DNA of 64,000 bases, taken from positions 95,899,605 to 95,963,604 of the forward strand of contig OX457036.1 of assembly GCA_949752735.1 (NCBI GenBank), written 5' to 3'. The DNA is from Lumbricus terrestris (lineage: Eukaryota > Annelida > Clitellata > Crassiclitellata > Lumbricidae). A model generated the notes under the pieces. It saw only the letters and a program-made list of their open reading frames with translations, did no database searches and had not been told where the DNA came from. Both the position numbers and the translations under genes were made by a program. This document shows, one piece after another, positions 1,099 through 58,900 of the stretch. The stretch's first letter is position 1, and every line of letters begins with the position of its first letter.

Positions 1099-4000
1099 GT
1101 TGGTGACAAGTTGCTACTTGAAGGTCAGCTGCGCATCTGTTGGGGCATCATCCACCCGATCCTCTTCAAGGAGAAGGATGATGAACAACCTACGTCTCCC
1201 CAGACCCAGCACAGACACAGCTACAGCCCGGCGGTACCCGACGCAACGGATTTTGTCCTGGTAAGGAAATGTCACTGAACAGTCTTTCTCTTCTCTTTGC
1301 ATTTGCTGTGAAATCGTATGAATACGGAAATCTATCTCTTTCTGTCTGTCTGCGTCTCTCTCTCTGTTTCTCTCTCTTTCTCCATGTGTCTTGTGCTCTC
1401 TCTGTCTGTCTCTATATCTTGTTGTGTATCTGTCTCTTTTTGTCATTGTATCTTTATATGTGTGTGTGCGTCTGTCTCTTCCTCTGGCTCTCTGTATCTT
1501 GTATCTGTTTCTATCCTGCTTGTCTTTCTATAGATCTGTCTCTCTGAAATGTTGTCTTTGTCTGTCTGTCTCTCGCCTGTGTACGTTCTCTGTTTTATCA
1601 TTGTCTGTCTGTCTTTCTGTTTGTTTCTTTGTCATTGTCTTTCTCTCATTCTCAAGACTTTCTTCTCGTTTCATTTTCTGTAGAACTTTGACCTTGCCGA
1701 TGGTCCGTTGAAAAATGGAAGTTCCGAGAAGGGAAACGCAGAAGAAGGAAAGAACCGGTTTGGAGCGGTCGTCATGAGAAACGGAAAGAAGCGGAAGAAG
1801 ACGAGAAAACGTCTGTCGATAATAAACGGACATTTGTACAGTACTGAGGTAAGAACGTTGTACGGCCATTTGTACAGTACTGAGGTAAGAACGTTGTACG
1901 GCCATTTGTACAGTACTGAGGTAAGAACGTTGTACGGCCATTTGTACAGTACTGAGGTAAGAACGTTGTACGGCCATTTGTACAGTACTGAGGTAAGAAC
2001 GTTGTACGGCCATTTGTACAGTACTGAGGTAAGAACGTTGTACGGCCATTTGTACAGTACTGAGGTAAGAACGTTGTACGGCCATTTGTACAGTACTGAG
2101 GTAAGAACGTTGTACGGCCATTTGTACAGTACTGAGGTAAGAACGTTGTACGGCCATTTGTACAGTACTGAGGTAAGAACGTTGTACGGCCATTTGTACA
2201 GTACTGAGGTAAGAACGTTGTACGGCCATTTGTACAGTACTGAGGTAAGAACGTTGTACGGCCATTTGTACAGTACTGAGGTAAGAACGTTGTACGGCCA
2301 TTTGCACAGTACTGAGGTAAGAACGTTGTACGGCCATTTGCACAGTACTGAGGTAAGAACGTTGTACGGCCATTTGCACAGTACTGAGGTAAGAACGTTG
2401 TACGGCCATTTGCACAGTACTGAGGTAAGAACGTTGTACGGCCATTTGTACAGTACTGAGGTAAGAACGTTGTACGGCCATTTGTACAGTACTGAGGTAA
2501 GAACGTTGTACGGCCATTTGTACAGTACTGAGGTAAGAACGTTGTACGGCCATTTGTACAGTACTGAGGTAAGAACGTTGTACGGCCATTTGTACAGTAC
2601 TGAGGTAAGACGGTTGTTCAACACCAAAGTAAGACATTAAAAATTGGCTCTATATAAATTCTTGTAAAACCCAGTTCTTTTTTCATCTATAGAAATGTTT
2701 GATAACATTACCGTGCAGGGCTTAGCTCCTAAATACCTCTGTAACTTGATGTGCAAGCCACTCTCTGTACGATCTTCACGCCATCTTCGTTCTGCTGATC
2801 GCCTTTATCTATTTATACCTGGGTCACAAACCTCATTAACACCGCATCGGGTTTTAGTTATTATGGGTCTTCACTCTTCAGTGTGGTTCACCTTCCCCCT
2901 GCAATTTGTTGCACGATTCTGGTAGGAACTCACCAGCATCTTTTCGCTGCTTGAAGACCTACAGGTCTCTTTTCATGGGCCTGTCAGTCTGTCACACTGA
3001 GAGCACTTCTGAGTAGTTCTGCTGTGAGAAGTGGTTTGCAAATGTTAGATTAGATGGATTAGATGACATTGCAATGCGCAGTGATCTGTTAGATGGCACA
3101 GTTGTCGCTTTGGTTGGATGTTTGCATATATGGGAATGTTTAGTATTTTCTGTCGTTTATTTATTGGTTGATTGTTTGTTGATAAGGCGATTTATTTTTT
3201 ATTTTTTATCTAATTTTGTGATTTATATATAATTGGTTGATTTATTGATTGTCTATTCGTTGATCCAGTGTGATTTGCTTTCGCTTCTTAATGAATTTGA
3301 TTTCGGTTTTAGACGAGCTTATTCAAACCGGTGCATGGTACAATGACGGGCGTCACCGTCACAAGTCTACTCACGACGCAACAGGTCATCAAAGCCCTGC
3401 TCGACAAATTCAAGGTTCACTTTCTCAATAGTCTCAATAGTCTTTGTTAGGACGACTCAACCTTCTATTCGGCAGATGGCAAATAGTAGAATGAATAGTG
3501 GTATGGGTGCCTTGTTGTATAGCTGCCAAAAGTTGAAAACAAACATCAATGCTATGACACATAACTACACGTAGCTGCCTAGGCAACCAACTTACGTTGC
3601 TATCGCTTTGTTTATGAAAACTCCAACTTTTTAGGCCTTAGTGTTTTTATATTGCAAGCTAAGGAATTAGATCTATGTAACGCCAGTAATAAATCATCTA
3701 GCTTGACTCTTACTTATAATTAATAATTGGTACATATATTGATTAGTTTACTAGATAAGAGTATACTAATTCGCCTTGTTGTATAGCTGCCAACAGTTGA
3801 ATTTGATTCCTGTAATAACTTGTGATCATCCATTCCAGGCTACATGGTACGTTGCGTTGCAAACCGTCTGAACGTCTGATCTGAACTTCTGGTTTTTTTT
3901 CAGGTTGAGAATCATCCGATCGAATTCTGTCTTTGCATCGCCAAAAGCAACGGAGGTGATTGCGATCGTTTGTCCATTCCAATTCAATTTCTCAAATAGA

Positions 4001-6075
4001 AATTTCTTCTGTTCGTTATAACGTAAATAATCATTTTGGTCATTACATGGAGGGTCTGGCTCCCATGCACCTGCGGGGGGGGGCGTCCAGCGACGATCTG
4101 CCTCCGATTGGCTGTTGTCCCGTTGCTCGCAGACTGCTATATAATGCAGCGCCACTTTCTCTCGGTGACTGGCCCTAAAACCTGGAATGGGTTCCATGTT
4201 GTGATCCACCTGGAGGTCACATCATTATGTTCCTTTCTTTCCTAAAAACTGCCTTATTTAGACGTGGTTGTACTGGGAGCGCTTCTTAGTGGATTATCTT
4301 GAAGGTGCGCTATACATGTAAAACTCAATACTACTAATAATATTATGAATAAGAGCAATAAACAACGTGTTGATATTGCTCAATGGTAATAAATGCGGTT
4401 AGTTGTTGTAAAGTTTTTGTGTGGTCTTTCCAGAGAGGTACGCACTGAAGGACATGGACTTTCCGCTTCTGGAGCGCATCCGACAGGGACCACACGAAGA
4501 CGAAGTGAAGATATTCATCATGGAGAAATATCGACTCCTTGACATAAGCGAGGAGGTGACTGATCGTGTCAACAGTATTGAATATTTTAATATTGGCTAA
4601 AGAAGAGAAACTTACCCCATTAACAGACTAAATATAGGCTTCATCCATCACTAATTCATGATTTGGAATGAGTGCTGGTGTCACGTGACAAAGTCTCCCC
4701 CTAAAAGTCTTCCCTGAAGACTTTATTTCAAAACAGATTCTCCCTGGCGGATCTGTTCCAGAATAAATTTGCCCCCAGAGACTTCTGAAATAAAGTCTCC
4801 AGGGAAGAGAATATTTCCTCTGTCCACAAACTAAAGTCTCCCCATTCAGTGTGAAATGGGCTACAGTTGCATAAACTTTATAGATGAGTTGATAAATTAT
4901 TTAACAGGAAAATGTACATACTTTACATCAGAAAATTTCTTCCAATAAAGAGGTTCAGCCAGGGGAGACTCTGTTTCGGGGAAGACTTTATATCATGACA
5001 CTGGCCCTTTTTGTTCCTTTTGTTGAACATGTGAGAAAACCCTTGTTCAGTTAAGTAGGAAATACGAAATGAAACAAACTCTTTGATAGCTGTGCTCGCA
5101 AGTGTGCTGTAATGTTTTCATCAACGAGGTTGCAAACGTGTACACGTATTGTATGTTGTGAATGTAGAAGGGAAACATCGTGGCTGCCCCAGATTGCGAC
5201 AAATCAGAATAGATCTATTGAGTAGGATGAATTGATTTGTTGTTTTCAGGTTGCTCAGTTTGTAAATCTTCCGGAAGCGGTTCTAGTGGGATTTCTCGAA
5301 AAGTATACGAAAGATGAAGAGATGGAAAAGGGACTAATCCGCGAAAAGTAAGACTCTTTCATCTCCGGCGCTTTCGCTATTTGGGGAAACAAAGGAATAG
5401 AAATGGAATGAATCAGTAAACTATGAGAATGGATCCAGGATTGATGGAAAGCATTCCAGGAATGGATTAAAGTTTCAGAATTGAATCTCATGCAAATTTT
5501 AAATTGTTATTTCATAAATTTATATAGCCCTATTTTGTAAACAAATCTAATCACTTGCACCATACAGCACCATTTTCATGATATAATATCAATAAAAAAT
5601 AATTTTAGGTGCCAGCTCTATCATTATAATTGCATTGTTATTGTAAATTTTTGTCATTGTAATCTGACATTTATAAAGCTTAAAGAAAAAGCTCAACCTT
5701 GGTGCTTCCAAGCCAAACAGTGAAATTACTAGTAGTGTCAATAATTAATACAGGCTTCAGGGGCCTACGAAACTGCAAAAGGGACAAACTGAAGCTCTTG
5801 AGAAAGACTAATCTATCTGGTGGGTCTCGTGAGTAATAACTTGAAAGTGAAAAATTAATGATAAAATTGCCATTAACTGAACTTGAACTATTTTAGATGC
5901 AAAATCTATGATGAGATTAAATTAAAGATTAAATAAACTGAAATCTTAGTACGAGCGAATTTCAATATAATTATAGGTCTATAGTCTATACTAATCTGGA
6001 CATCTGTTGTGTTTTAGGTACAAAACCTATCGTGAGAAACTAGAGGAACGCCTTGACAGTATGTCTTCCCTCTGA
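1099..6075 (+). CDS. RASSF2/4/6: RASSF2/4/6-like Ras-association domain protein, 3' seven exons (5' incomplete)
   Basis: Seven exons join in phase: 1099-1260, 1684-1848, 3313-3414, 3904-3955, 4434-4555, 5250-5347, 6018-6075 (TGA at 6073-6075), 252 aa visible. Exon 1 has the family's N-terminal block (LLLEGQLRICWG, like EGLLNISWG in RASSF2). Exon 2 is basic and ends INGHLYSTE, matching the SINGHFYN segment. Exons 2-5 (about residues 102-190) form the Ras-association domain (KALLDKFK, RIRQGPHEDEVKIFIMEKY). Exons 6-7 (from about residue 201) are the SARAH helix that in this family binds MST/Hippo kinases (FLEKYTKDEEMEKGLIREK, then YKTYREKLEERLDS). These proteins are adaptors without catalytic activity. 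Introns are GT-AG; the donor after 3414 (gttcac) is weak. The donor after 1848 is the first of a 22-copy array. Earlier N-terminal exons were not found. Orthology to the RASSF2/4/6 ancestor rather than RASSF1/3/5 is inferred from the motifs. Confidence 0.88.
1327..1665. repeat. Pyrimidine-rich simple repeat (tctctctgtctgtctg) in RASSF intron
   Basis: About 340 bases of irregular tct/tgtctg repeats fill most of the short intron 1261-1683 on the plus strand. This gives an unusually long polypyrimidine tract before the acceptor at 1682-1683 (ttttctgtag). The open frames through it are artefacts of the repeat. Confidence 0.85.
1828..2610 (+). repeat. 36-bp minisatellite, 22 units, each carrying an exon end and a GTAAGA donor
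   Basis: Units start every 36 bases from 1828 to 2584. The first unit (gga at 1828-1830) is the real end of RASSF exon 2; units 2-22 begin ggccatttg. Each contains catttgtacag, then tactgag, then gtaaga, so each has an acceptor-like 'tttgtacag' and a strong donor 'gag|gtaaga'. Units 14-17 (starting 2296, 2332, 2368, 2404) share one T-to-C change (catttgcacag). The last unit diverges after gtaaga. Because 36 is divisible by 3 and no unit has a stop, the exon frame stays open to TAA at 2638-2640, each unit adding 12 residues (GHLYSTEVRTLY). Confidence 0.97.
2690..3050 (+). mobile_element. Non-LTR retrotransposon 3' end fragment
   Basis: The translation contains GLAPKYLCNLM and then a degraded stretch typical of the C-terminus of CR1/L2-type reverse-transcriptase ORFs (GLAPxYLxxL...LRSS...). 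It is followed by the tail found throughout this window (gagagcacttctgagtagtt). It is out of frame and lies in the RASSF intron 1849-3312, so it is not coding here. Confidence 0.7.
4030..4345 (+). mobile_element. Non-LTR retrotransposon 3' end fragment
   Basis: Sits in RASSF intron 3956-4433. Reads MEGLAPMHLRGG..., later PKTWNG and FLKTALFRRG with frame changes, and ends with the tail 'gggagcgcttcttag...gtgcgctatacatgtaaa'. The same C-terminal pattern and tail occur in the larger LINE copy at 31826-33090. Confidence 0.72.
4670..5010. repeat. Fold-back-like repeat rich in aagtctcc/ggagact
   Basis: In RASSF intron 4556-5249, short motifs such as aagtctcccc, gaagacttta and ggagacttt occur many times in both orientations between 'ggtgtcacgtgaca' (about 4677) and 'tcatgacactgg' (about 5003). 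The outer ends are roughly inverted, which would fit a degraded DNA transposon. No target duplication was recognised. Confidence 0.35.
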
Positions 6076-16717: not shown

Positions 16718-16943
16718 AAAGATTTTAACAGGGCTCCCTCCCTGTTAAAATCTTTGGCCTGGAAGGGAGCCCTGTTAAAATCTTTGGCCTGGAAGGGAGC
16801 CCTGTTAAAATCTTTGGCCTGGAAGGGAGCCCTGTTAAAATCTTTGGCCTGGAAGGGAGCCCTGTTAAAATCTTTGGCCTGGAAGGGAGCCCTGTTAAAA
16901 TCTTTGGCCTGGAAGGGAGCCCTGTTAAAATCTTTGGCCTGGA
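16718..16943. repeat. 30-bp minisatellite, 7 direct units plus one inverted partial unit
   Basis: Seven copies of a 30-base unit (ccctgttaaaatctttggcc plus tggaagggag) run from about 16739 to 16943. An inverted partial copy at 16718-16739 (aaagattttaacagggctcc) forms a palindrome with the first unit. Because 30 is a multiple of 3, both strands show repeat 'proteins' (ALLKSLAWKG and FNRAPFQAKD). Neither has family support or a plausible gene context. Confidence 0.95.
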
Positions 16944-20019: not shown

Positions 20020-23000
20020 CGTGTAGCTGCTACATGCAGGGCTGAAAGTGGTTTGAGCTGTACAACTGGATTATGAAGGAAAGCCTACGTGGAACAAACG
20101 AATGGCCGATGCGTGAATGTTTTGATTTTCTACACTGTTATCTAATAATATACTAAAATGGGATATATGCGTGCGTCTAAATGTTAAACACGCGACCAGC
20201 CTAAGACACGACAAAACAGGGTGCCAAAACGAAAGGCCGGGTCACAGACCCGGACAGACCCGGTTAACTTTCAGCCCTGGCTACATGTGACCAGGGCCGT
20301 GTTTAAGGTTCGTCGAGTGTCGGTGCAAAGTGTTACAGCAGGGGCAAAGTGCCGTTCGGCAGTCTTACAAGATTAGTCCTTTACACAAATCCGCTGTTCA
20401 ATTAGGCTATAGGCTAGCCTACGTGGTTTGTCGGCTGTGGCGGGTCAGTAAGCACGCAACGTCGGTGAACTTAGTTAAATGAATGTTTTCTTACAATTAC
20501 TGATTTTACAAAAGGTTTAAGTAACACTGAGACTCGCAAAAGACATTTGGCCAATGACAACAAAACTCTCGGCTCAGGGGCATTCGGTGCACCGCACCGA
20601 ATGGACCTATGTTAAACACGGCCCTGCATGTGACACATCTTTCAAGAACGTCACAAGGGTGTTTAACAAGACAGTTGAAACCAAATAAAATATTTTCTGG
20701 CTCTAAAAGCTAGCAAAGTAAACCAGCTCCATTGTAAACCTCAAACTCACTAAAAAATAAAAAAGACAGATCCCAGTAACATCACCAGCAGTGCATGACA
20801 TCCTGCAACAGCACCACATCTTCACGACCTACTCTACTTGGCATCGGGTTGACCTCTATACCCCTCGAGTCAGGACCACCATGGCTCAATCCCGATCATT
20901 TGCCTGCATTGGTCCCTCCCTATGGAATGGGCTCCCCCCGCCATCAGTTTGCTCTGCCATCCTCTCTGGTAGTGTATTCTCGTCTATCTCTCATCTAAAA
21001 ACTTGCCGGTTTTTTCGGGGTTGAATGCACTGAGAGCGCTTCTGAAAGGCTCTTGCTGCAAGAAGCGCTTTATAAATGGTCAGATACAATACAATACAAC
21101 ATAAATGGATCGGACCAACTTGCCTCGGTGTATTTCCTGTCTTTGTCGAGAACTGTTACAACTTTTCCGATACTTCCACTTCCAATTAATTTCTTCTGCT
21201 TCTCCTAAAACAGACATGTATGGAAAAGAGATGAAGCTGCACGAAAAGCATACTAAACAATTCATATCAAATTCTGAACAGAATAATTGTTAAATTCTGA
21301 ATAAAAACTAATTCAAGTGTTGTGAGAGATAGAGTGGTTGGAATTAAGAGATGGCATTCACCACTTCACTTAACTATTCGAGTGACATGGCAGACAGTTG
21401 GGTTGGCAATTGGCATGGCATGGTATAGTTGGGGCTACAATTAAAGGCAGGGCTTAAAGTGTGGCTGGACGGTCATGGACGGCGTCCATGCACTTGTTTT
21501 AACTTTGACCCAGACACTTTGCACGCTCCGTTTAAGCATCTAAAGGGTTCGTCAGAACAAGTTGTCATTTTGCAAGACCAACCTTCAGTAAGACCTGTAT
21601 TCCCTTGGGTGAAAGTGACGGAGGTTCTCTGAGAAGATCCCACGTGTAGACCCACTGGCTGTCCCAGTGGCCAAACAGATCGCCTTTGCTCAGAAAGATG
21701 ACGCGTCTAAAATGAACGAATGCATACTTCCCTTTATCAACATAGGTGCAATCACGTCCTAAAAGTTGGGGGGGACCATAATGAATCACGTCCTAAAGGT
21801 TGGGGGACCATAATAATAAAGTTAGGGGACCACTCAAAAGTTGGGGGACGCGTCCCGTGGGTCCCATAGGGTGGCTGCGCCTATGAATGACAACCAACTA
21901 TACTAACCATCAACCACGTTGTCTCAATTGTGTCTTCTAATAATAAGTTGGAGGCGAAAAATTGCTGGAACATACGTTACTAAGTTCTCAATTTTACTAA
22001 AATTTATGCAACTGACATCACTTTAACCTTCACAAACTGACAAAGTGCCCTCACAGTACAACCTAATCAGAGGTGCTCCCAATCTGAAGAACCCCCGCTA
22101 TCACTTTTCTCACTCCCTTCTTTTGTAACTCAAAATATCTATAATTTTCCACGAAAAAATGTTGTACACAAGATCTTTATATTTGAGACCTGAATAAATG
22201 AAGTTGGATGTTAGTTATTGAAATCATTGAATTGATCTGATCTTACTTGTCTGTTCCAAGGAGAACATTTCGAGCGTCACCCGACACGTAGATGTGTCCG
22301 ATGTAGACGTCAGATGCATACTTCCCTTTATCAACATCCTAAATTTGAAAGAATCAGTCAGTCACTCAATCAAACGTTTGACCAATAAATACATCAATAG
22401 ATAATACTCAAATCAGTAATATCAAATTATATGACTCAGAATACATAAAATAATAGATATATAATGAAATGAAAAATAAAAAAACAGCAAATATCAATGA
22501 CACCAAATAATTAATTGACCTGTCAATGTTTCTCTGATATATCTTATCTTATTAGAAACAAATGCCTTAAAGCTCACTATTTCTCTGTGACTTTCAAACT
22601 TTTGGTGCCTATCTGTTTTTCACCGGGTAACTGACTAAACCACACCTCAAATATACACCTCTCTGCACCTCCGATACACCTCTCTGTACCTAGGAAACTC
22701 AGAAACATCTCCATGTACCTCACATACATCTATCTGTACCTCAGGTACACCTCTCTGTACATCAGATACACCTCCTTGTACCTCAGACACGCCTCTCTGT
22801 GACTCTGCGCAGAATGACTGATTTTTCACTGTTATTTACTTAAGAGAAATCTCGAGAGAGAGAGAGCGAAATCTCGTGGCAATAACAACTGTCAACCTGT
22901 AGGATTTGGTTTCCCTCTGCCTCTCGAAAGACGTACGGTCGGAGGATGGAGTCCGTCTGAATGAACCGAGCAGGTCGCAGTCGGTGAACTTCATCAGACA

Positions 23001-26000
23001 TCTCAGCAACCCTAACAAAACAATTCGATTATCATTAATACAATACAATACACACGTTGCAAGTTCTTTTAATTTATTCATTGTTCAAATAGAAACGACA
23101 GACAATGGATTATACATCCACGAAGAGTAAACACAGTAATTGTAGACACTGGTAATTATGACGATATACAATCAATACGTGATGATATACAATCAATACG
23201 TGATGATATACAATCAATACTTGATGATATACAATCAATACTTGATGATATACAATCAATACGTGATGATATACAATCAATACGTGATGATATACAATCA
23301 ATACGTGATGATATACAATCAATACGTGATGATATACAATCAATACTTGATGATATACAATCAATACGTGATGATATAAAATCAATACGTGATGATATAC
23401 AATCAATACGTGATGATATACAATCAATACTGTATCATATCTATAAATTTATAAAGTACATCCCACAGTGCATGCCAATCTGAGGCGCTCCAACTACGAA
23501 AGACCCAGAAAAAGAAAGTACTCTTAAGACAGCGAAAAGATGCGCTTGAGGTACCAGATAATAAAAAAATAATGTGTCATTGGAGAGAAGCTGATTCCAA
23601 AATGCACGGCCAATGAAGACAGTAGCGCTGAATGCACAATAATAATAATAATTTCTCAACTCAGTATTGACCTACGTGAAAGGTGCTACATAAATGATCG
23701 CATACATACATGTCATGTCATTCCGCCATCGTCGTTCTGCGACGGTTGGCTGCACGAATGGATGAGCATTTTCCACAGTTGTCTATCTCCTGCCATGTTC
23801 ATTAACCTCCTCCCCGAAAGTCCAGTCCACTTCAAGATGTTGTCTATCCATGCCATTCTTGGTCTTCCTCTTCCCCTTTCTCCCTCCATCAGTCCCGTCA
23901 TCATGTTGTTTTCTATGCTTTCCTTTTGCTGTCTCATCACGTGTCCGAAGTATCGTAACTTTCTTGTTTTTACGTGGGTCAACAGTTCTTGCTTTGTTCC
24001 TACTATGAAGTACACCTGTTCGTTGGTCAGTTTTTTTGTCCATGGGACTCTTAATGTTTTTCTAAGACATTTGTTCTCGAATGCTTGTATGCGTCTTTCC
24101 TCCTCTTTCTTTAAAGTCCATGCCTCACACCCGTATGTCACCACTGGAAACACCAATGCCTTCAGTAGTCTCGTCTTTGTTCTGTTGCTGACAGCTTTAT
24201 TTTTCCAAATCTTCGTCATATTTACCAGACTCGTCATTCCCATCGCATGCATATATACAACTGTCACCTACCTTCGAATGCCTTCGAATGAACTGGATGC
24301 AAAGTCGACGACGCCACTGGCTGGTCGAGTGAAGACACCAACAAGTCCCTTGCCCATTCCTAATTAAGCAGAACAATCACTTTCAAGACAATGATGAATT
24401 AACATGCAACCATATTATTCGTCAGTCTATCAACGTTGGCTTATCCACCGTAGGCTGTCTTTGCATCTTTTCTAGAAGTAGTCTGTAAAAACTAATGTTA
24501 AGACCTATTTATTTAAGGTCTATTATAGACTTTCCTGTCATGCATTTCATGCAAGATTCTTTTTGCGTAGGTGTGGTACAAATGACAGCTCAATAATCTA
24601 ATAATACTAAGCATAATTTAGGAGAGATGCAACTGATTTTTAAAAGCCTATCAGAGAGAAGAAACGTTTGTTATAATGCAGCAGCAATACAGAATTTATG
24701 CAAATCTAGAATCTAAAGCGTAGAAGATCTATTGGTGAAGCGATGGTTAAGAAACTGTCGAACCTTTGAAGAATCCGCCAACACCTTCCTGCTTTGCTCC
24801 TTCAACAGGTTGTGTTACAATGCCAGTCACTCCATGCACCACACCCTAACAAAGAAGAGACAGAAACACTGATATTTTAAGCTGCATTATTACATTAAAC
24901 AAGATTATATTCCAAGCAGCTGCAAAAACTTCACAATAATAATTAGAATAACAATTGATAAAATTTCATTAACTCGGCAATTTCTATAGCGCCCAGTCAA
25001 GGAAATTATTCAGAACCACTCCCAACTCTAGCATGCCGAAAAAGAACAGCTTAAAGCAAGGAAGGATTCTGGGTTTAGGTGTATGTTCAAAGGATGGTCA
25101 TTCCTGACTACTGGAATGATTTATATAACGTTGTAACTCAGAGCGAAGAACCTCTTGAAAAAGAAAATGGTTAATGGTGCTATACCAACTATCGCAATAT
25201 ACATGCATACCAGAGCACAGAAAATCTCGAAACTAAAGTGAATCTGTGCAGTTATAAGTAATTAAGTATATATATTGTGAAATAAAAGAATGCATGTTCA
25301 ACGTACCACGATTGTAATAAAGTATATATTGTTTATTGTGAAATAAAAGAATACATATGTTCACCGTACCATGACCAATCCTTTTCCTCCTCTTGCCAGT
25401 CCTTCCTTGAGATCAGCCGGACGTTTGTTCAGCGCCTCTCTTCGCTTCTTCTGATAGTTTTCATCCATCGTCAGTGTTGCGATTCCCTTGCCCAGGGCGC
25501 CTGTGATACGAGACACTGCACCAGCAGCTCCACCTGGTGATAAATACATCAAATGCAACCGTTGATTTTCAATCTCGACATTCCCAGCATTCACCACGTT
25601 CCTTAATTAACATAAAGTTGTAAGATGCGTGGGCACCCACATACAGAGGGTTAAAGGTGTATTTAACCTGGGAAAATTGGCACTTTACCAATTTTTTAAC
25701 CGTACTAGGTCTGTGGTTTTCAACCAACTTTCTTGCAGTAAACTACTAATGACACTATTGAATTGCAAAGTGAAGCTGACAGTTTAAGAATAACATTTTT
25801 TTCAATTTATATCTACAGCTCCCCCATGTCATTTTCTATGATTATGATATAACAACACCACCCAATTATGACTTTGTTTGGATATTGTCTCAAGATTTCG
25901 AATTCTATATTTAAAAGCTCTGCAAAAAAAGAAACGTTTTTAATTCCATCTTTTGCATGGACTTTTTGACAACAAAACTGTTTTGCACCACCTGCAAAAT

Positions 26001-29000: not shown

Positions 29001-32000
29001 CCAGCATGGCACCGATGAAACCCTGGTCGACCTTCACAGCCATCTCCTGGATCAACAGCTTACAGTACCTGTCCAAAAAACACACATTATCTTAAATTCA
29101 ATACCGTATATACCATCCGAATGACGAATGCCTCCCTCATCCTGCTACCTGCCTGCGGAGGGATTGTACGGTTATGGGTCAGTGAGCACAGATGGTAGGT
29201 GGCTTTGACCGACAGAGAGATATTGGAATTCGCCTTACTACACAGCTGCTCAAAGGAGGGAGCAGTCTCCTTTGAGCAACTAAACAAATGACTCACTTCT
29301 CCTCACCAGCATCTCATTCTTTAAAAACAGTTTCCGTGCGGAGAGCGCCTCTGAATAGTCATTCTGCAAGAGGTGCTATATATATATATATATATAAATC
29401 TATAGATATGATATAAATATATATATATATATACATTAGGGCTGCTGATTAATCGCAGTTAACGCGCGCGATTAACGCGTTAATTTTTTTAACGTTTAAC
29501 ACGATTAAAATATTTAATCGCGATTAAATTTTAATCGCAAAGACCACTCTACAGGTAGAAATTTTCCGAACACTACGACGCATCGGTTAATGTCAAAGCC
29601 TAAAATCTTTGGCCGAGATTGGGCTTAATTCATAGAGGTGGGTTGGGCGTATTTGACGGCAACAAGAAGCATTTCCTGTTATCCTAATGGCGGCTAGAAT
29701 GGGTTTAAAAAAAGTTTAGCCTATCCCTTCTGTGAAAGTGTATCTTCCTGTAGACCTACTTTGATTTCCATTCATATCATAAATAATAATTATTTTTTGC
29801 GGGTTATTGCAATCTGAGAATGAAAATATCGGAGATAAAAGCAGAGAAAAGTCAAGCGATATAGGCCTATTATGCCTATAGGCCTAATAAACTATCAGAC
29901 GATATCAGCTTACCTTTAAAAGGCAGATAGGCCTGCGTTAGCGTGCAAACAATTTAAGTAGGAATTTAAATAGCACACCTAATTCTCTCTTGTATTATAC
30001 ATGCACGAAGCATGCTTTGTTTTTTTGTCAGCCGCGCCCGTTTCTTTGTTGTAAATCGTCATAATTATCTGGGTCTTTGATCTCACATCCATTTGTTTGT
30101 GAAAAAATATTCTGTGCATAGGCCTAAGTCATGGCATGTTAACCGAAACGGGGGGACCCATGACTCAAGAGAAGCACAACTCCATTGGTAACTGGTTCAG
30201 TACCTTGCTCTTAAGTGCTGTAATATGCCGAGCAAATTTTTGTCCAGGGTAACGGCCTCTGTTGTCATAGACCCTGGTCAAATCGGATCCATCCATCCCA
30301 TTGGTAATGGACCGTAATGCTCTTTCTTTGAGGACAGCTAGGGATAGTAGACCATTGAATGCAGTAAACGATAAGGATTTGCAAAGATCAATTGCTATTT
30401 TATCAACATGCGATTAATCGCAAGTTTAATCGAGATTAAAATTTTTAATCGCACGATTAATCGCGATTAAAAATTTTAATCGTTGAGCAGCCCTAATATA
30501 CATATAAATCTACAGATATGATATAAGACACAATCTGATTAGATGACCTTTGATACTGAGAGATGATCAGGAGAGTCAATATTAGATGACTTTTAACACT
30601 GAGATAATATTGGTGACCTACTTGAACTGCTTGACGCTGCTGTGGCTGCTCTTGCGGATCATCACACTCAACTCCGTGAAAGGCTTTGGCACTGGACAAA
30701 AACAACAACAATCATACATTTTCATTATATAAATATAGTAAACCACAGCAGTGCAATATTCAGCATACTGTAAACATACTTTAAAACTCAGCAAAGAAAA
30801 TGCTCAGCAGCTTTTGTCAGGCTAATCTCACTTCAGTTTAGCTTCTGGCATATCCAAGTGATCATATTATATACACTAATTTCAATATAATAATTTAAAG
30901 TAACAGTAAAATAAAAACAATAATAATTTTAAAGCTTTAATTAATGACTAAATAAACAAATTCAACGATTCTAAGTGAAAGGAGAAATGCATTCGAAACG
31001 TTCTTGTAGGGAGCTATATAAATGCTTAGACACATTCTGCACACACATGAACTTTGCCACTGCTCCTAAAATGGCAGTGCCAGTTCCAAGTCTGGAGAAT
31101 CAGGGGAGGGCGACAAATCAGCCACTAACCAACCATACATACATGTACAATGTACATCTAAAACATATAGCACTACCTCTGTAACAATAAACTAAGCATA
31201 TTTCCGAATAAAAAAACTTCTTTCAAATTATCACTCATAATGAGTAACACAATGAATCACAATGATCACAAGAAGAGTGTCTTGCTAAGCGAGCAGAAAT
31301 CAAAAAACTTAAAAAAGCGCAAAGAGCTGAAAATCGTGAGCGCCACAGACCGCTGTCAGCTGCGATAGACTTCGGAGGTGGAATCGGAGCGAGAACTGTT
31401 GGGAAGACGGCGCCAGCCAACTGACTGTCCAACTGTCAGAGAAACAACAAAAATCAATATAATATAAGCAATTAACATCGTTACCATCTTCGATTTCTCC
31501 ATCAGTATTTAGCTCAAATTTACTCAGACTGTTTGCTTTTGCTTCACGTCCCAACAATCGCCAACATCTGCAGGAAAAGAAGCTCTCGGGTTCTTTTTGC
31601 TTGTGCTCCAACCATATAGAACAGAGCTTTTTCTGTGGTGGGACCATTGATCTGGAACATCATTCCTTTAGAATTATGCCTACACCCTGTGGATCAACCA
31701 GAAACATACCTCACCGAACTTAAAACTGTTCTGTTTGGGAGTGCATGAGTTGGGAGTGGCTCAGAGTAGTCTCTCAGATGGGGTGCTATATAAATTAACG
31801 AGCGAATGAATGAATGTGTATCATGATTACTTACTGACATCTTTGCCGCTGTTGATCAATCCCACATTACCTTACTTGCCCTGTTTGACGTCAGTGCGGC
31901 GTTCGACACTGTTGACCATTCTATTCTACTCGAGCGTCTGTCCAAATCTTTTGGCATTGGTGACTCTGCCCTCCTCTGGCTTAGTTCTTTCCTCTCTGAT

Positions 32001-35000
32001 CGCTCTGTATCTGTGATCTTTGGATCCACACGCTCCTCCTGGACCTTTGTTCCCTACGGCCTGCCTCAAGGCTCTGTCCTGGCGCCGCTTCTATACATCC
32101 TATATACTGCTGATCTATTGAACCTATTATCCCGCAAGGGTGCCTCTGCTCATCAATACGCTGATGATACACAAGCATTTGTCCACGGTTCTCCCAGTGC
32201 TGCCTCTTCACTGGTTGCAACTATCCTTGACGCCACTATGGAACTGAACCAATGGATGTCTTCTAACCGTCTTCGCCTTAACTCTGATAAAACCCAATTC
32301 ATCTGGCTTGGTGGTAGAGTCCAGCTCGCCAAGATTGATATGGAGCTCCTCAGCACGTTGTACCCAGATATCCAATTTTCTCCAACTGTTCGTGATCTGG
32401 GTTTTACTCTGGATCCAATTCTTTCTCTTACTGATCATGTTAACCGAATCTCTCGAACATGTTTCTATCACTTGCGACAATTGCGTACTATCCGCCACTC
32501 ACTCTCCCTTCAAGCGGTCAAGGCGCTTGTCCATGCTTTGATTTGCTCTAGAGTCGACTTTGGAAACTCTGCCTATGCTGGTCTCTCCTCTCTTAACCTC
32601 TCTAAGCTTCAGTCTATTCTTAATGCTGCTGCCCGCTTAATTGCTGGTCTTCCCAAATTCTCTCACATATCTGATTTTATTCGGGACACTCTTCATTGGC
32701 TTCCTGTACCTCAGCGCATTGAGTTCAAGATCCTGACTCTTATGCGCAACTCTCTTCTCGGGGTAGCCCCCTCTTATCTTCGGGCACTGTGTAACTTGGT
32801 CTCCACTCTTCCTGGCCGCTCTGCCCTTCGATCTGCTGCCAATGGCCTTCTAGTTGTCCCGCGCATGCGTGGAGCTACGGCCCAGTCCAGAAGCTTTGCA
32901 TATCTTGGTCCTACTTGTTGGAACCGCCTTCCTCACAAGCTCCGTTCTGAGCTTCTTGGCCTTTCTCTTCCCCTGTTCCGTAAACGTCTGAAAACTATAC
33001 TATTTGTTAGCGGTGAGCACTAGCTTGGGTCGGGAGCGCCACTGAATCTGTGAGCGGCGCTATATAAATGTTCAATTACTATTACTATTACTATTACTAT
33101 GATAATGATTTGTGTTGTTGTTGTCGGTGTTGTTGTAGTTGTTTACCTGGAGTCGATGTATCTTGAGGTGGATCTGTGTCTGATGTGGCGACGTACGATG
33201 TTGCATCCAGATGCCATGCTCAAAACTACGACGGATCTTCACCTTATGAGGCTTCAGCATCATCAGCTGATCAGGTTGACCAAAGTCAACCTAGTAAGCA
33301 ACAGAAATAGGACAGAGCTATACATGATGAAGATATGAGATATACAGAATGAAGATGGGACAAATATATGGACAAGATAGGACAAAGATAGGACAAATAC
33401 AAGACAAAGCTAGGAAAAATACAGGACAAAGATAGGAAACATACAGGGCAAAAATAAAACAAATACAAGACAAAGATATGACATATACAGCATGATGATC
33501 ATGATCATCGCCATTGTCATCATCATGAACAGCCAATTGTTTACATGACCCTACACCAACTTCACAATCTCCCTCATCTCTCTGAACCTGGCTCCCGTTG
33601 CAGAGCCAGGTGAGATGGAAGCAGCCTTACCTCTATCTTGTCATCAAGCATCCTCTTCTTTGGTGCCGTAGGATTGGCGAGCAGTTCCATGGAAAACTTC
33701 TGGAATCCTTCTTCGAGCGCCTGACTCACTTTCAACTTGAGCGCCTTGAAGCGTTTCCTCTTTAACTGTTCCCAGATGATGCCCGAACTAAAACCATCAC
33801 CAACATCATCACCATCGCATTAATATCGTTTTCAACATTATTTATAATAATAATCATTTTAATAATTATTAATATTTATAATTGACTAAACAAACATTCT
33901 TTAATTATTATTATTACTTCACAAATGGTTTTGTTGATGGGAAAAGTGATGCAGAAAACGACTGCATGAGAGCGCTGAATAGTCAAAGATAAGCGCTTAT
34001 TATTTTTACTTTATTTGCTAAAGGGTTTTAGAAATTGTGAAAGTGGTGCATCTGGAACGAGACTACCTCTCACACATGTCAAGTAACGACTTAACAACAG
34101 AGTCAGTTAAAGTCACAGCGTTATTATTATTATCAATTATAAATCATGAATTATTATCAATTATTACCATTAACTATTATTAATTTTTTTCTAAGCCTTG
34201 ACATATACAGGATCCCTCACTCAGGGACTTCACTAACACCTAGTATAAAATCGAAAGTATCATCATCGTCGCCACTGTCGTCGTCATCATCATCATCATC
34301 ATCATCTTAAGAGGAGTAGCATCATCAGACATTTGAATGTGCCTGAGATAGTGGAAGAGAGTATAAACAAGAAACAGAAACGAGACAATAGAAAGATATC
34401 TCTAGAATTCTTACCTTGTGATGCCAAGATAAGCGATCTCTTTGCGCAGCAGATTGTTGACAAGCGACAGACCAAATCCTTGCAGACTCACTTCAATCTC
34501 CAACTCAATTCGCTCCAATTCACCCGCCTATCAATCATCACAGATGCAACATTCTATTTACAGGTACAACATTCTATTTACAGGTACAACATTCTATTTA
34601 CAGGTACAACATTCTATTTACAGACCTGTACAACATTCTATGGCCAAAAACGCTGATGGACAATGCAAGCAGTACAGCAGAATTGATCAAGATCCAGTTC
34701 TCTACAATCACTTGATAATTCATCTGGTTATGGGCAATAAAAACACTGTAAAATAATGATATAAATTTTCTTTATATAAGCTGAATTATATTTTAGAGTA
34801 ATGTTAAATCCAGCAGTTACTGTTCTTGAACGATAGAGATATATGGTAAGAGAAATGATCTCACAAACAATGTAAACAATGTGAGATTCTGGTTATTCAT
34901 CAATATTTCATGAATTTATTCAATGTCTCAATCAATTTATAAAGTGCCAACGCAGGACAGCATTCAACAAAAAGCACAATACAAGACAATAATGAAATTT

Positions 35001-50000: not shown

Positions 50001-52925
50001 AACCATGCTTTCCCAGTTGTAGGACCCTCATCCGGGAATGGTCCCCCCTTGATGCTCTGCTCCCTTTTCAGAACTTCTTCCCCAGGTATTCTTCTCTCAT
50101 CTTAAGACAGTTTTATTACGCTGGGGACTGGGAGTGCCTGTGAGTAGTCCCAAGTTCTTGTAATGAATGAATTTTGTATGAAGTAGTACAACGTAACATA
50201 ATATAAATAGACGTGTTTGTAGAATAGACTTACGAAATCTCTAACTGACGTAAAACAATGATAATATAAACCCAGCAGCTAAACAACATAGATTTCCTAA
50301 AAAACAGAACAGGTTCAAACGAAGAGCACATGGGTAACATGGAACTTATCGAACACATACGCACATAATGTGCAAAAACATAGGCAATGACCACATTAAA
50401 AAACTGAAGAGTTCACTTAACAGTCTCCCAACAAAAGCGCAGACAATAACCGTTAGCCATCTGGGCAAGAATGTCGGAATATGGGACTTGACAATATCAT
50501 GCAATCAGCACCCTCAGAGTACAGGGGACTTATTCAGGACTTTTTATTTAAATTCTTCAAATGGAACTATGGAGTACTTTAAGACTGGCAGGCAAGGTTG
50601 ACAGTGCATGGGAAGCTTTCCGAGTCACATGAAAGCGCTCAAGCACATTCTAATTCGGGTCAGGCAGATGGATCAAATTCATAGTTTATCGACAACCTAT
50701 GGCACTAAAGGCCGTTATTTTTTAACAGTTCTCATGAATTGCAACGCACAAAACAGGTTACAAGGTGCGATATATAGTTATGTATAAATGCAGTGGATTA
50801 TCAGGACAGAAGTTGGAAGGCCATAGGCGCAATCACGTCCTAAAAGTTGGGGGGGACCAAATGAATCACGTCCTAAAAGTTGGGGGGGACCATAATGATA
50901 AAGTCAATGGGACCACCCAAAAGTTGGGGGGGACGCGTCCCGTGGGTCCCATAGGGTGGTTGCGCCTATGTGGAAGGCCACTGGAAAGATTCTTTTATGG
51001 CCAATGAAAAAAGTGTGAATGACACAAAGAGCCTTTTGTGGCCATTTGAAAAGAGCCTTAATGGCCACTGGAAAGGAGCTGCAAACGGTCAGACTATGGA
51101 CAATTTGGACATACATGTATATGTATATGAGAAACTGCGCATACCTTGCTTCTAAAGAATCTGATACATTGGAAATTGAATTATCGGTAACTAAGAAAAT
51201 GAGCTGATGAAATGTCACATAAAAACTTTTTTCTAAAGACATCAACGGCTATATCAGCAATAGAATGTCGATAAACTTTTGGAATAGATACAAAGACAGA
51301 AAGTAGGATCAGATCTGCCCCACTATTCCGACATCCAACGCCCACATTAGCACAAAAACACAAAACTAAACAACTGATTAAGAGATGTCCGAGGAGCATG
51401 CAGGCAGGCAGCCCCAGGCTTACGACATTCAAGGCGACATTAAACGTGACGTTAAACGTGACATTAAACGTGATGCTAAACGTGACGTTAAACGTGACAC
51501 CGCTGCCGTTGACGAGCGACTTACTTTGACGTTCTTGTTGATGTGTGACTTATGCTTAGATGACTTCTTGCCTTCGGTCGATTTCGTCGAAGCGTTAGTG
51601 GCGATGGATGCATTGCTACGCCGAGGACTACACGTCTTTGAAGGAGTCTCCACTTCATCGGCGGATAAGTCACCAATCGCTGCGCTTTCCTTGCTCTCTT
51701 TATTTTTCTTTGTTTATTGGAAGGCAGGCAGCAGCATCAAGCAGAATGAGCAAAGTCTTATATGTGCTTATATGAATCAGGTTTTTCGATGAATCATGAC
51801 TGTTGTGCAAGAATCTAAACCCGTTACAACGTGTGCAATGGTCATTAAATGAATTTCTATAAAACCTCTTCAAGGGACTACTCAGAGGCGCCCCCGACCC
51901 AAACCCAGCACGGCCAAATAAAACTGTCTTAAGATGAGAGAAGAATGCCTGAGAAGAAAGAAGTTCTACAAAAGGAGCAAGCATCAAGGGAAGGCCATTT
52001 TAGGTCGAGGGTCCTACCGTAAAAATAAAGCAATGGTGCCTTAATTCTTTTTGCTGAAGGGCTAAATGAGACAACGACTATCTTGCACGCACAACAAAAG
52101 CTCGAAAAATTTCTGAATGCAGAATGTAACGGTATAACAAAGGTTTTCAGACACATCACACAATACAAGCAAACATGATTCATGAAGGTTTTTAAAAACT
52201 GCCTTTGCCAGTTATACCCTTCATACGCAGTAATAAAAAATTCTCAAAGTCAAGATTGAAAACTCACTTTGCATTTGGTCTGGCCCATAAACAACTTAAA
52301 TACTGTTTTACATATCTTAAACTCTTGATAGCTGAAGATTAACTGAAATTTGAAATTCAGACTTTCTGATTCTTTCATTCCTTGTATGTTCACTGAAGAA
52401 GCCTCTTAGAGATTCAATTTCCTTGAACCTTAACGATAACCTGCACTGGATTTCCAGTCGCTAGCAGTACCCTCACCCCACCCACCCGATCATTAAAGTG
52501 CTGACCTCACAAACAGAAGCAGAAATTGGATATCCATGTAGCACAGTCTCCAAATTCTCAAAATTGAGCCACTGCAAGATTACAGCCACAGAAGAAAACA
52601 AGCAGAAATCTCAGATTGCAAACTCAACAATTCAATCAATTCAATCAGTTTTTTAAAACAGACTTGAATGAAAGAAAAGAAGACAAGCGAGTTCTACCTT
52701 TTTCGAACTGCCTGGAACGGATGACTTCTTAAATAAGAAGAAGACGGCTTCACTGAAAGACGACTCGTGCTTCACGATGTAGTCATCTGATGCCTATATA
52801 AAAGCAAAAACAATCGAAACCAGTACAGGATAATGTAATGCAAGTAACTTCTATAGTGCCACTCACAGCCATGGCCATTCAGCAGTGCTCCCAGCGCGAG
52901 AACTCAGAGAAAAAAAGATCTTATG

Positions 52926-55900: not shown

Positions 55901-58900
55901 TTCGCGGCATCGCTCACAACTTAAATTTGCAAGTTTAGACGTGTATATATATATATTTAGCTAAGCACATTTAAGTAGGACCTGTTCTTTTGCCAATTTA
56001 AGGCATTGCGTTTTTATGAAGATTTAAAATTAGTTCGTAGGACCTGTTCTTTTGCCAATTTAAGGCATTGCGTTTTTATGAAGATTTAAAATTAGTTCGT
56101 TCGCAGTAGGACCTGTTCTTTTGCCAATTTAAGGCATTGCGTTTTTATGAAGATTTAAAATTAGTTCGTTCGCAGTAGGACCTGTTCTTTTGCCAATTTA
56201 AGGCATTGCGTTTTTTATTAACTTCGTTCATAGTAGGCCCTCTTATATAGAGATTAAAAGTATACTTTCAACCTAAATCACGAAGTGTTTATCGATTAAT
56301 CAACTAATGCGCGGTAATGGTGGTCCGCGGTAACGATAGTGCGCTGAATTGCAATTAGCGGTATTGTGTGCGCGGTATTGTGTGCGCGGTATTTGTGTGC
56401 GCGGTATCGATAGTAAACCTGCGTAACACCATGCAGCAGGTGGAATTTTTTTAATAATAAAATATAAATTTTCAATGAGTTCCATAGCTACTTCAGATTG
56501 TTTTTACAAAAAGATCGTTGGCTACCAGCAGAAATAGAACTCTCGCACTTTTAAAGATGTTTCTTTTTCCCTGGCGCTTGTGTGCTGAAAGTGCCTCTGA
56601 TTATTCAATGCTGCGAGTGACTATCTATCTATTTTAGATACAATACAGTAATAGATAGAGACATATCTAATTGAAATGCTATCTGACTTTGTACCTCAAT
56701 GGAGCAGACAATGTGAGATGGCAGAAGATTACGGAAGACGACCGTTGGATTGAGTGTGATCAAGTAAGACTTCGCAGATGCCTCTGACGTCCACTCAAAC
56801 AAAATGTTCTCAATCTCAACCTTTGCCTAAATTCATCACACAACACGCAAAGTATAAGAACTAAAAAAATTGCATCAATCTGATAAACTGAGGAAGAAGA
56901 ATAGAAGTCTCTCTAGCTAGTCTTTGATGCAGCCATGGGCATAGGCGCAACCACCCTATGGGACCCACGGGACGCGTCCCCCCCAACTTTTGAGTGGTCC
57001 CATTGACTTTATCATTATGGTCCCCCCAACTTTTAGGACGTGATTCATTTGGTCCCTCCCAACTTTTAGGACGTGATTGCGCCTATGGCCATGGGTATGA
57101 AGTGTTTGTGACTTCATTTTCTACGCCATCGCATTATAAGGGTTGGATTTGAACCCTGACCTCTCAATTAACAGTCCAGCACGCTCTGGAAGAATTAGGT
57201 TAAAAAAACCAGTAAACAAACCTCAAGAAATACACAATTGCAACATGTCTATAGCACGAAAATAGTCTGCACAACGTAACGCGTAGAAATCTGAAACTCT
57301 GGAGGCAACCCATACTTCACATAATCATATAGCACAACCAATATGGTCTACTATTTACACACTGGGTTTACAGTAAATCAACTAATGGTCAGAGCTGCTG
57401 ATAAATAAATGTAATGTAACACAGAGTAGTAACCTTAGACTGGTTACGATGTACGTAAGTTGCGCACGCAGTCAATGGAACAAATAAATATTTTTTACTC
57501 TCGTCAACCATTCAACCAAGAGAGACAAACACATTAAAAAAAGACCGATCCCAATCTCAAACGACTTCACACATGTTACATGCTACGTTACGTGCTATGA
57601 CGCAAGCAAGAATAACATAATAAAGGTAGCAAAGAACATTTGACAGATACTTACAAGTGCCAACGTAGACAAAAGGTTGAATGCTTACTTTAACATACAT
57701 GCAAGTCAACGTTCACATTGAAATTTAGTAAAAGCATTTGAAAAAGGAACTTACGGATATGAAGACTGTGGGAGAGTCCGGCTTATTGCCTTTACATTCA
57801 AACAGCTGACAATGGCCGCCATTCGAACTTAGATTCTTCCATTTATAGCCTGTCGTTGACTCCAAGTAACTAAGAATAGAGAAAGAAACAAAGCACATCA
57901 AAACATATATATATATTGCCAGTTCAAAGTTTGTAGAACATGGCTATCCAGCAACACGAGTTCTTTGCAAGCCAACTAAAAACAACCTACTTAAAGCACA
58001 CACAGCTACACTCTGGCACAACAAAAATAATTCTCACCTGTGAAAAGACAATAATTATATTGAGCCCACAAACCGATTTGCAAAAAAACTCAATGTTTTC
58101 GGTGTCAGAGTAAACACTCTCCAACATTGCTATATCTAATGACGTTGCCATATTTTCACACTTTAATCCACATTCATGAATTACAACAAGCGAAAAGAAG
58201 GTTCATGGTTAAAAATTTACATAACCGAGAAAAATGAGCAAAATCCATTGCGTTAGAATAAACGAAATGGTCAATGGCTATTTCGCGAGAATTAGAATGC
58301 ACAGCAAGAAAATCCATTGCAATATATAATCAGTTCTGTATGAACCACCACATTCCACAGACTTGCCTTCCTTGCGCTGGTTTGAAGAATATCTCGTATG
58401 GCGCAGCGTAGACCGCATCACATGGTAGGCTGCAGATGCTGCCGGGTTTTGCCGATCCGCATCGTGCGCTGGCGTCGTCGCTCAGCTTGTAGTACATCTC
58501 GACAGCAACTGGTAGGCAGTTGTGTATCTAAGACAAACAGTCTCTACGCTGTACTGTAACTGTACGGTAATTGTAACTGTACTGTAACTGTACTGTAATT
58601 GTACAGTAATTGTACGGTAATTGTAACTGTAATTGTATTGTAATTGTAACTAGTGACTTCTATTGTGCCAGTGAGAACAGATGGTGCACCAAAACTAAGC
58701 TGCAATCAGATTGATATCAAGAAGATCAGTCTGTTGTATGGCAGAACTTCACTGTTTGCACATCGATTGGAAGCAATTTAACCCAAAATGATATCTACAT
58801 GTACAACTTATTGTATCGTATTAAAACATTTCAAAAGCACCTGTAGTAGGGTGAACTATACAGTGAGCAAGGCCCTGAGAGAAGAAATAGGTTTTAAGAA

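Follow-up and report, generated by a model that had tools for sequence, protein, structure and literature searches.

The window (by which we mean the whole stretch of 64,000 nucleotides that we analysed) holds seven exons of a RASSF gene on its plus strand, and the second of these exons ends inside a minisatellite. The first exon (1099..1260) encodes VGDKLLLEGQ...DFVL and has the donor CTG/gtaagg. The second (1684..1848) ends in ...INGHLYSTE and holds the exonic part of the first repeat unit; as a query it had one match in the genome, hence there is one locus. The next exon (3313..3414, TSLFKPVHG...DKFK) starts the RA domain, which also takes up the exons at 3904..3955 and 4434..4555. The exon at 5250..5347 has the first part of a SARAH domain, and the last coding exon (6018..6075) ends in ...YKTYREKLEERLDSMSSL and a stop codon.

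The searches for the RA domain, PDB sequences, and related proteins, as well as the alignment, were run with a 252-amino-acid model of the gene from the window. This model carries a wrong end, 5754-5830; P0002, the best of the nine matches in our protein search, ruled out this candidate and gave 6018-6075 as the true last exon. The RA domain (PF00788) was found by Pfam both in the window model (E = 3.5e-10) and in P0002 (E = 4.3e-10, residues 158-230). Nore1-SARAH (PF16517) was found at residues 250-284 of P0002 (E = 0.00029, 21 bits versus a cut-off of 21), in a stretch that is encoded by the exons at 5250 and 6018, so going by sequence the SARAH domain of the RASSF2/4 family appears to be only just recognizable. 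The only PDB sequence that matched the window model was the RA domain of RASSF5 (3ddc_B, E = 0.00024), and one of the related proteins bears the name RASSF2_4. Together, the two domains in P0002 and the named relative bear out the original identification of this gene as a RASSF, which had been made by a sequence-only reading of the locus. (The predicted protein of another relative, P0008, has an extra N-terminal domain, PF00412 or LIM, besides the RA domain.) In the translated array, Pfam suggested DUF6911 and DUF4209, but none of these stretches passed on its own, and we consider them to be repeat artefacts. Scans of the window gave no Rfam family at the gathering score and, with ARAGORN, no tRNA.

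P0002 is 290 amino acids long and is encoded by a 1777-nt contig. Across nine exons, 288 of its 290 residues agree with this gene; seven of these exons are in the window and the other two lie upstream, ending about 8.3 kb and about 0.5 kb before the window's first base. The two differences are at residue 70 (in the exon at 1099..1260), which is M in P0002 and T in the genome, and at residue 1, which is M in P0002 and TTG in the genome. TTG may simply have been called as the start. Because all eight introns are missing from it, we take P0002 to be apparently from a spliced transcript. As residue 70 differs, the source of P0002 might be another individual, or a close relative, whose array is short or absent.

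The minisatellite lies at 1826..2617. Tandem Repeats Finder gave a period of 36 bp, 22.0 copies, 99% matches, no indels, and a score of 1535, which is far beyond chance. The first unit consists of the last exon bases and the first intron bases, so the array spans the exon-intron boundary. In a unit-by-unit comparison, 16 of the 22 match the consensus at every base. Of the others, unit 1 is one base off, unit 22 is two bases off, and units 14-17 have a T>C change in common that turns HLYSTE into HLHSTE. GAGGTAAGA is present in all 22 units (at positions 1846 to 2602), and so is the donor GAG|GTAAGA, from the first (1849..1854) to the last (2605..2610). The reading frame is open from 1684 to the TAA at 2638-2640, which would end the protein if the intron were retained. 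These results agree with the sequence-only reading, which had described a 36-base array of 22 copies over an exon end and its donor, with "gag|gtaaga" kept by every unit and an open frame through all copies to a stop at 2638. It had also placed an acceptor-like tttgtacag in each unit, which is so for 18 of the 22; the other four have tttgcacag instead.

A query of two units against the 1.056-Gb assembly had 10 matches, all of them within the array. It is extremely improbable that misassembly explains the number of copies. One lancelet array of a similar kind is described as apparently misassembled in a draft genome (PMC3087553), but here the edge units and units 14-17 have variants of their own, the array sits on contig C1, which is 98.9 Mb long, and a single long read could hold all 792 bp, if long reads were used.

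Tandem arrays with donor-like motifs are common in this genome, and they are not enriched over the control. For three tandem copies of AGGTAAG at set spacings, we found 2,098 overlapping matches on one strand and 2,042 on the other, or 4,140, and the reversed pattern, which served as the control, had more (6,898 + 7,149 = 14,047). The 100 listed places with the AGGTAAG triplet, all from the first 46 Mb of contig C1, form 33 clusters. We also ran Tandem Repeats Finder on 20 random 10-kb pieces of C1 and kept rows with a period ≥ 10, ≥ 5 copies, and ≥ 90% matches. Nine rows at eight loci passed in these 200 kb (3,296 of the bases read were N), and none of the nine consensus units contained GGTAAG or GGTGAG on either strand. 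No row passed in the 30 kb upstream. What is special about the RASSF array is that it starts exactly on a used donor.

Several other repeats came up in this survey. Two families of dispersed minisatellites, found at many places in C1, have units that start with a perfect, donor-like AGGTAAG (32 bp, AGGTAAGGGGCGTCCAGGCACTTCTTTTGGAG; and 22 bp, AGGTAAGACGCCCAGTCAGGTG). The window contains another very uniform array, with 6.8 copies of a 30-bp unit and 100% matches (16740-16943), and an array of 13 copies of a 21-bp unit with 97% matches (23159-23430), over which an open frame (23073-23483) codes for a heptad repeat of the DDIQSIR type. An open frame at 31827-33023, with a domain of the reverse transcriptase family (PF00078, E = 1.1e-19), probably belongs to a fragment of a non-LTR element. 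A sequence of 33-34 bp, AATCACGTCCTAAAAGTTGGGGGG..., occurs in tandem pairs at 21750-21814, 50831-50898, and 57012-57078, once inverted, and seems to belong to a dispersed element.

If the RASSF exon were spliced to the exon at 3313 from any of the 22 donors, then the normal C terminus would be reached, with anywhere from 0 to 21 additional 12-residue blocks just before the RA domain. The sequence-only reading was therefore right that any donor joins the next exon in frame, and right about where the blocks would go. In the spliced message, donors 2-22 would be recognizable by the junction GGCCATTTGYACAGTACTGAG/ACGAGC and the first donor by GGACATTTGTACAGTACTGAG/ACGAGC. A 23rd in-frame donor, AAA|gtaaga, lies 3' of the array (2629..2634, cut at 2628|2629) and would add ...VRRLFNTK before TSLF. 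If the intron were retained, 263 residues would follow HLYSTE before the stop. To compare the donors, we scored their duplexes with the 5' end of U1. Of the eight exon-end donors scored, the array donor forms the strongest duplex (-9.6 kcal/mol, versus -2.0 to -8.5 for the others), and the 23rd donor is weak (-4.5 kcal/mol).

Splicing between units, by way of the acceptor-like site, had also been suggested. In the inner units that we looked at, the pyrimidine content of this site is 0.60, and seven of the gene's acceptors range from 0.55 to 0.85, so by this measure it could be an acceptor. A splice between neighbouring units would need an intron of 29 nt; with one unit skipped, the intron would have at least 65 nt. 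If at least one unit is skipped, then a single extra splice adds 7 + 36m bases and shifts the frame. As all 1,540 such splices lose the normal C terminus, the acceptor-like site would not be a useful source of isoforms in this way, and we dropped this suggestion.

The junction in P0002 (...INGHLYSTETSLFKPV...) joins the exon at 1684 to the exon at 3313 via the first donor (HLYSTE/TSLF), with no block. None of the nine related proteins that we found has an insert at this junction, and in the alignment of these proteins and the window model (10 rows) the surrounding N, G, H, Y, E/T, F, and P are invariant. When the whole frame of the array was compared to proteins (7,999 candidates that shared the most words were scored), P0002 to P0004 matched, and each match took in 16-17% of the query. 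When two blocks were placed between the exons, the search gave 40 candidates, none of them at E ≤ 1; the length limits of this search exclude P0002. The absence of the block from P0002 and from the other proteins found supports use of the first donor. We read the source of P0002, "lgn", as a short-read assembly. The missing inserts are weak evidence, because an assembly of that sort would drop minor isoforms and break inside a 36-bp repeat. P0002 does show the normal splice junction, and the array may be different in the individual that it came from.

The same uncertainty about the source of P0002 bears on the idea that, in alleles with the array, a donor far downstream is favoured and a long block is normal, with P0002 coming from an allele that has no array. 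P0002 is one internal residue off and so is probably not exactly this haplotype, and work on duplicated splice sites (for which our literature search found no paper) has it that the downstream one of two equal, close donors is preferred. We nevertheless consider this idea to be very unlikely: the junction is short, and its surroundings are conserved, in nine of the nine proteins found, and up to 252 extra residues in front of the RA domain would alter the protein greatly.

We propose that splicing takes place mostly at the first donor (1848|1849), in which case the messenger would encode the normal protein and the remainder of the array would be intron. The downstream donors, which are equal and in frame, might be used at a low level, and would then add 12-residue blocks (VRTLYGHLYSTE) before the RA domain. 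We are fairly confident of this combination of first-donor splicing, an otherwise intronic array, and possible minor use of downstream donors. Reports on lancelets, where splice sites are likewise duplicated and normal splicing is described, favour the first donor (PMC3087553 and PMC3902484). A report on human IFI6, in which downstream units are described as being used as donors, argues against it (PMC4526556).

The IFI6 report, in which two downstream units of a donor minisatellite are described as being used (PMC4526556), also favours the sequence-only reading's description of the array as an isoform generator. In that case several donors would be used at substantial rates, and the proteins would form a ladder, from no block up to 21, with a range that depends on the allele. 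The part of this claim that stands is that there are 22 donors that are equal and strong and that all read in frame into the next exon. In the AlphaFold2 model of P0002, which was built from nine sequences and has a mean pLDDT of 63.7, the junction (E147/T148) falls between predicted strands at 142-145 and 150-152, so a block of 12 residues could perhaps be tolerated there; this is only a hint, because pLDDT is under 50 for residues 56-150. The part that is not supported is the production of isoforms: the only nearly identical spliced sequence that we found, P0002, has no block, no protein with the block was found, and the open frame and intact donors would be expected without selection (see below). 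Overall, we think that substantial use of several donors is unlikely. The fuller form of the idea, that graded use of the 22 donors gives each animal its own RASSF ladder, with a reach that is set by the length of an unstable allele and that could differ between individuals or even cells, seems somewhat less likely still.

The open frame and the intact donors make a weak case for selection. First, when 20,000 random 36-mers from the window were each repeated, a given frame stayed open in 52% of them. The repeated unit is open in one of three plus frames and in all three minus frames (4/6), and if pieces of 21 + 15 bases from the six exon ends of this gene that we tried were repeated in the same way, 5/6 would stay open (including the array's own). 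Selection on the open frame is thus unproven. Second, the probability that all of the changes between units would miss the donor 9-mer is 0.42 if there are three changes or 0.32 if there are four, so selection on the donor is unproven too and need not be assumed. Since the array arose by duplication, the 22 donors count as one feature and not as 22.

Instead of working through the protein, the array might act on the intron by binding U1 snRNP, which would either aid the first donor or mask early poly(A) sites. Each unit's donor is predicted to form the -9.6 kcal/mol duplex given above, and outside of the array just 5 of the 3,423 GT sites on the plus strand of the window are as strong. But this genome has many tandem AGGTAAG arrays, and we consider a role of this sort to be highly improbable.

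The closest parallels that we know of are in lancelets, where repeats of this kind are called mirages; Canestro et al. (2002) is reportedly a reference on them. Mirages are minisatellite-like repeats over exon-intron boundaries, and those described are in Adh3 and in the globins BflGb6 and BflGb9 (PMC3087553). According to the same source, the Adh3 mirage has units of 10-72 bp and shows somatic instability, normal splicing is apparently undisturbed, and BflGb6 has 6 units in one haplotype and 3 in another. A later paper adds a mirage in TnC and describes PGBD5 as having imperfect repeats (PMC3902484). Like the mirages, the RASSF array consists of tandem units across a boundary that copy a splice signal, and on these two features we would class it with the mirages as a boundary minisatellite. 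Unlike them, it has 22 nearly identical 36-bp units, with all donors in frame, and the genome around it, at 1.06 Gb, is larger than is known for lancelets.

Other comparisons match less closely. The IFI6 gene (6-16 or G1P3) is said to have a minisatellite with multiple splice donor sites, going by the title of Turri, Cuin and Porter (1995). Two downstream units are described as being used as donors in human IFI6, which gives three mRNA species (PMC4526556, with Turri et al. as its source). In both genes a minisatellite supplies several donors, which are putative in our case; unlike in IFI6, which is a different gene, the use of downstream donors in the RASSF array is only predicted. In the model of Rogers (1989), introns are gained by tandem duplication of AG/GT sites (as cited in PMC2812944 and PMC3087553). 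The RASSF array similarly has duplicated splice signals beside an exon, but an existing donor was copied and we see no new intron. Our literature search for RASSF, minisatellite, and splice donor gave no title on such an array among the matches listed.

As to how the array arose, we suggest that a tandem duplication across the exon/intron border of this RASSF2/4-like gene grew into a minisatellite and that repeat turnover kept its units uniform. This route, the dominance of the first donor in animals that carry the array, the minor isoforms, and the variation in length are what we infer for this locus. The array would be a natural test of how the spliceosome chooses among 22 identical donors that are 36 bases apart and that all yield readable proteins. 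If several of the donors are used, then a change in copy number alone would alter the length of the protein. With this array, the lancelet type of boundary minisatellite gains a further gene and probably a further group of animals.
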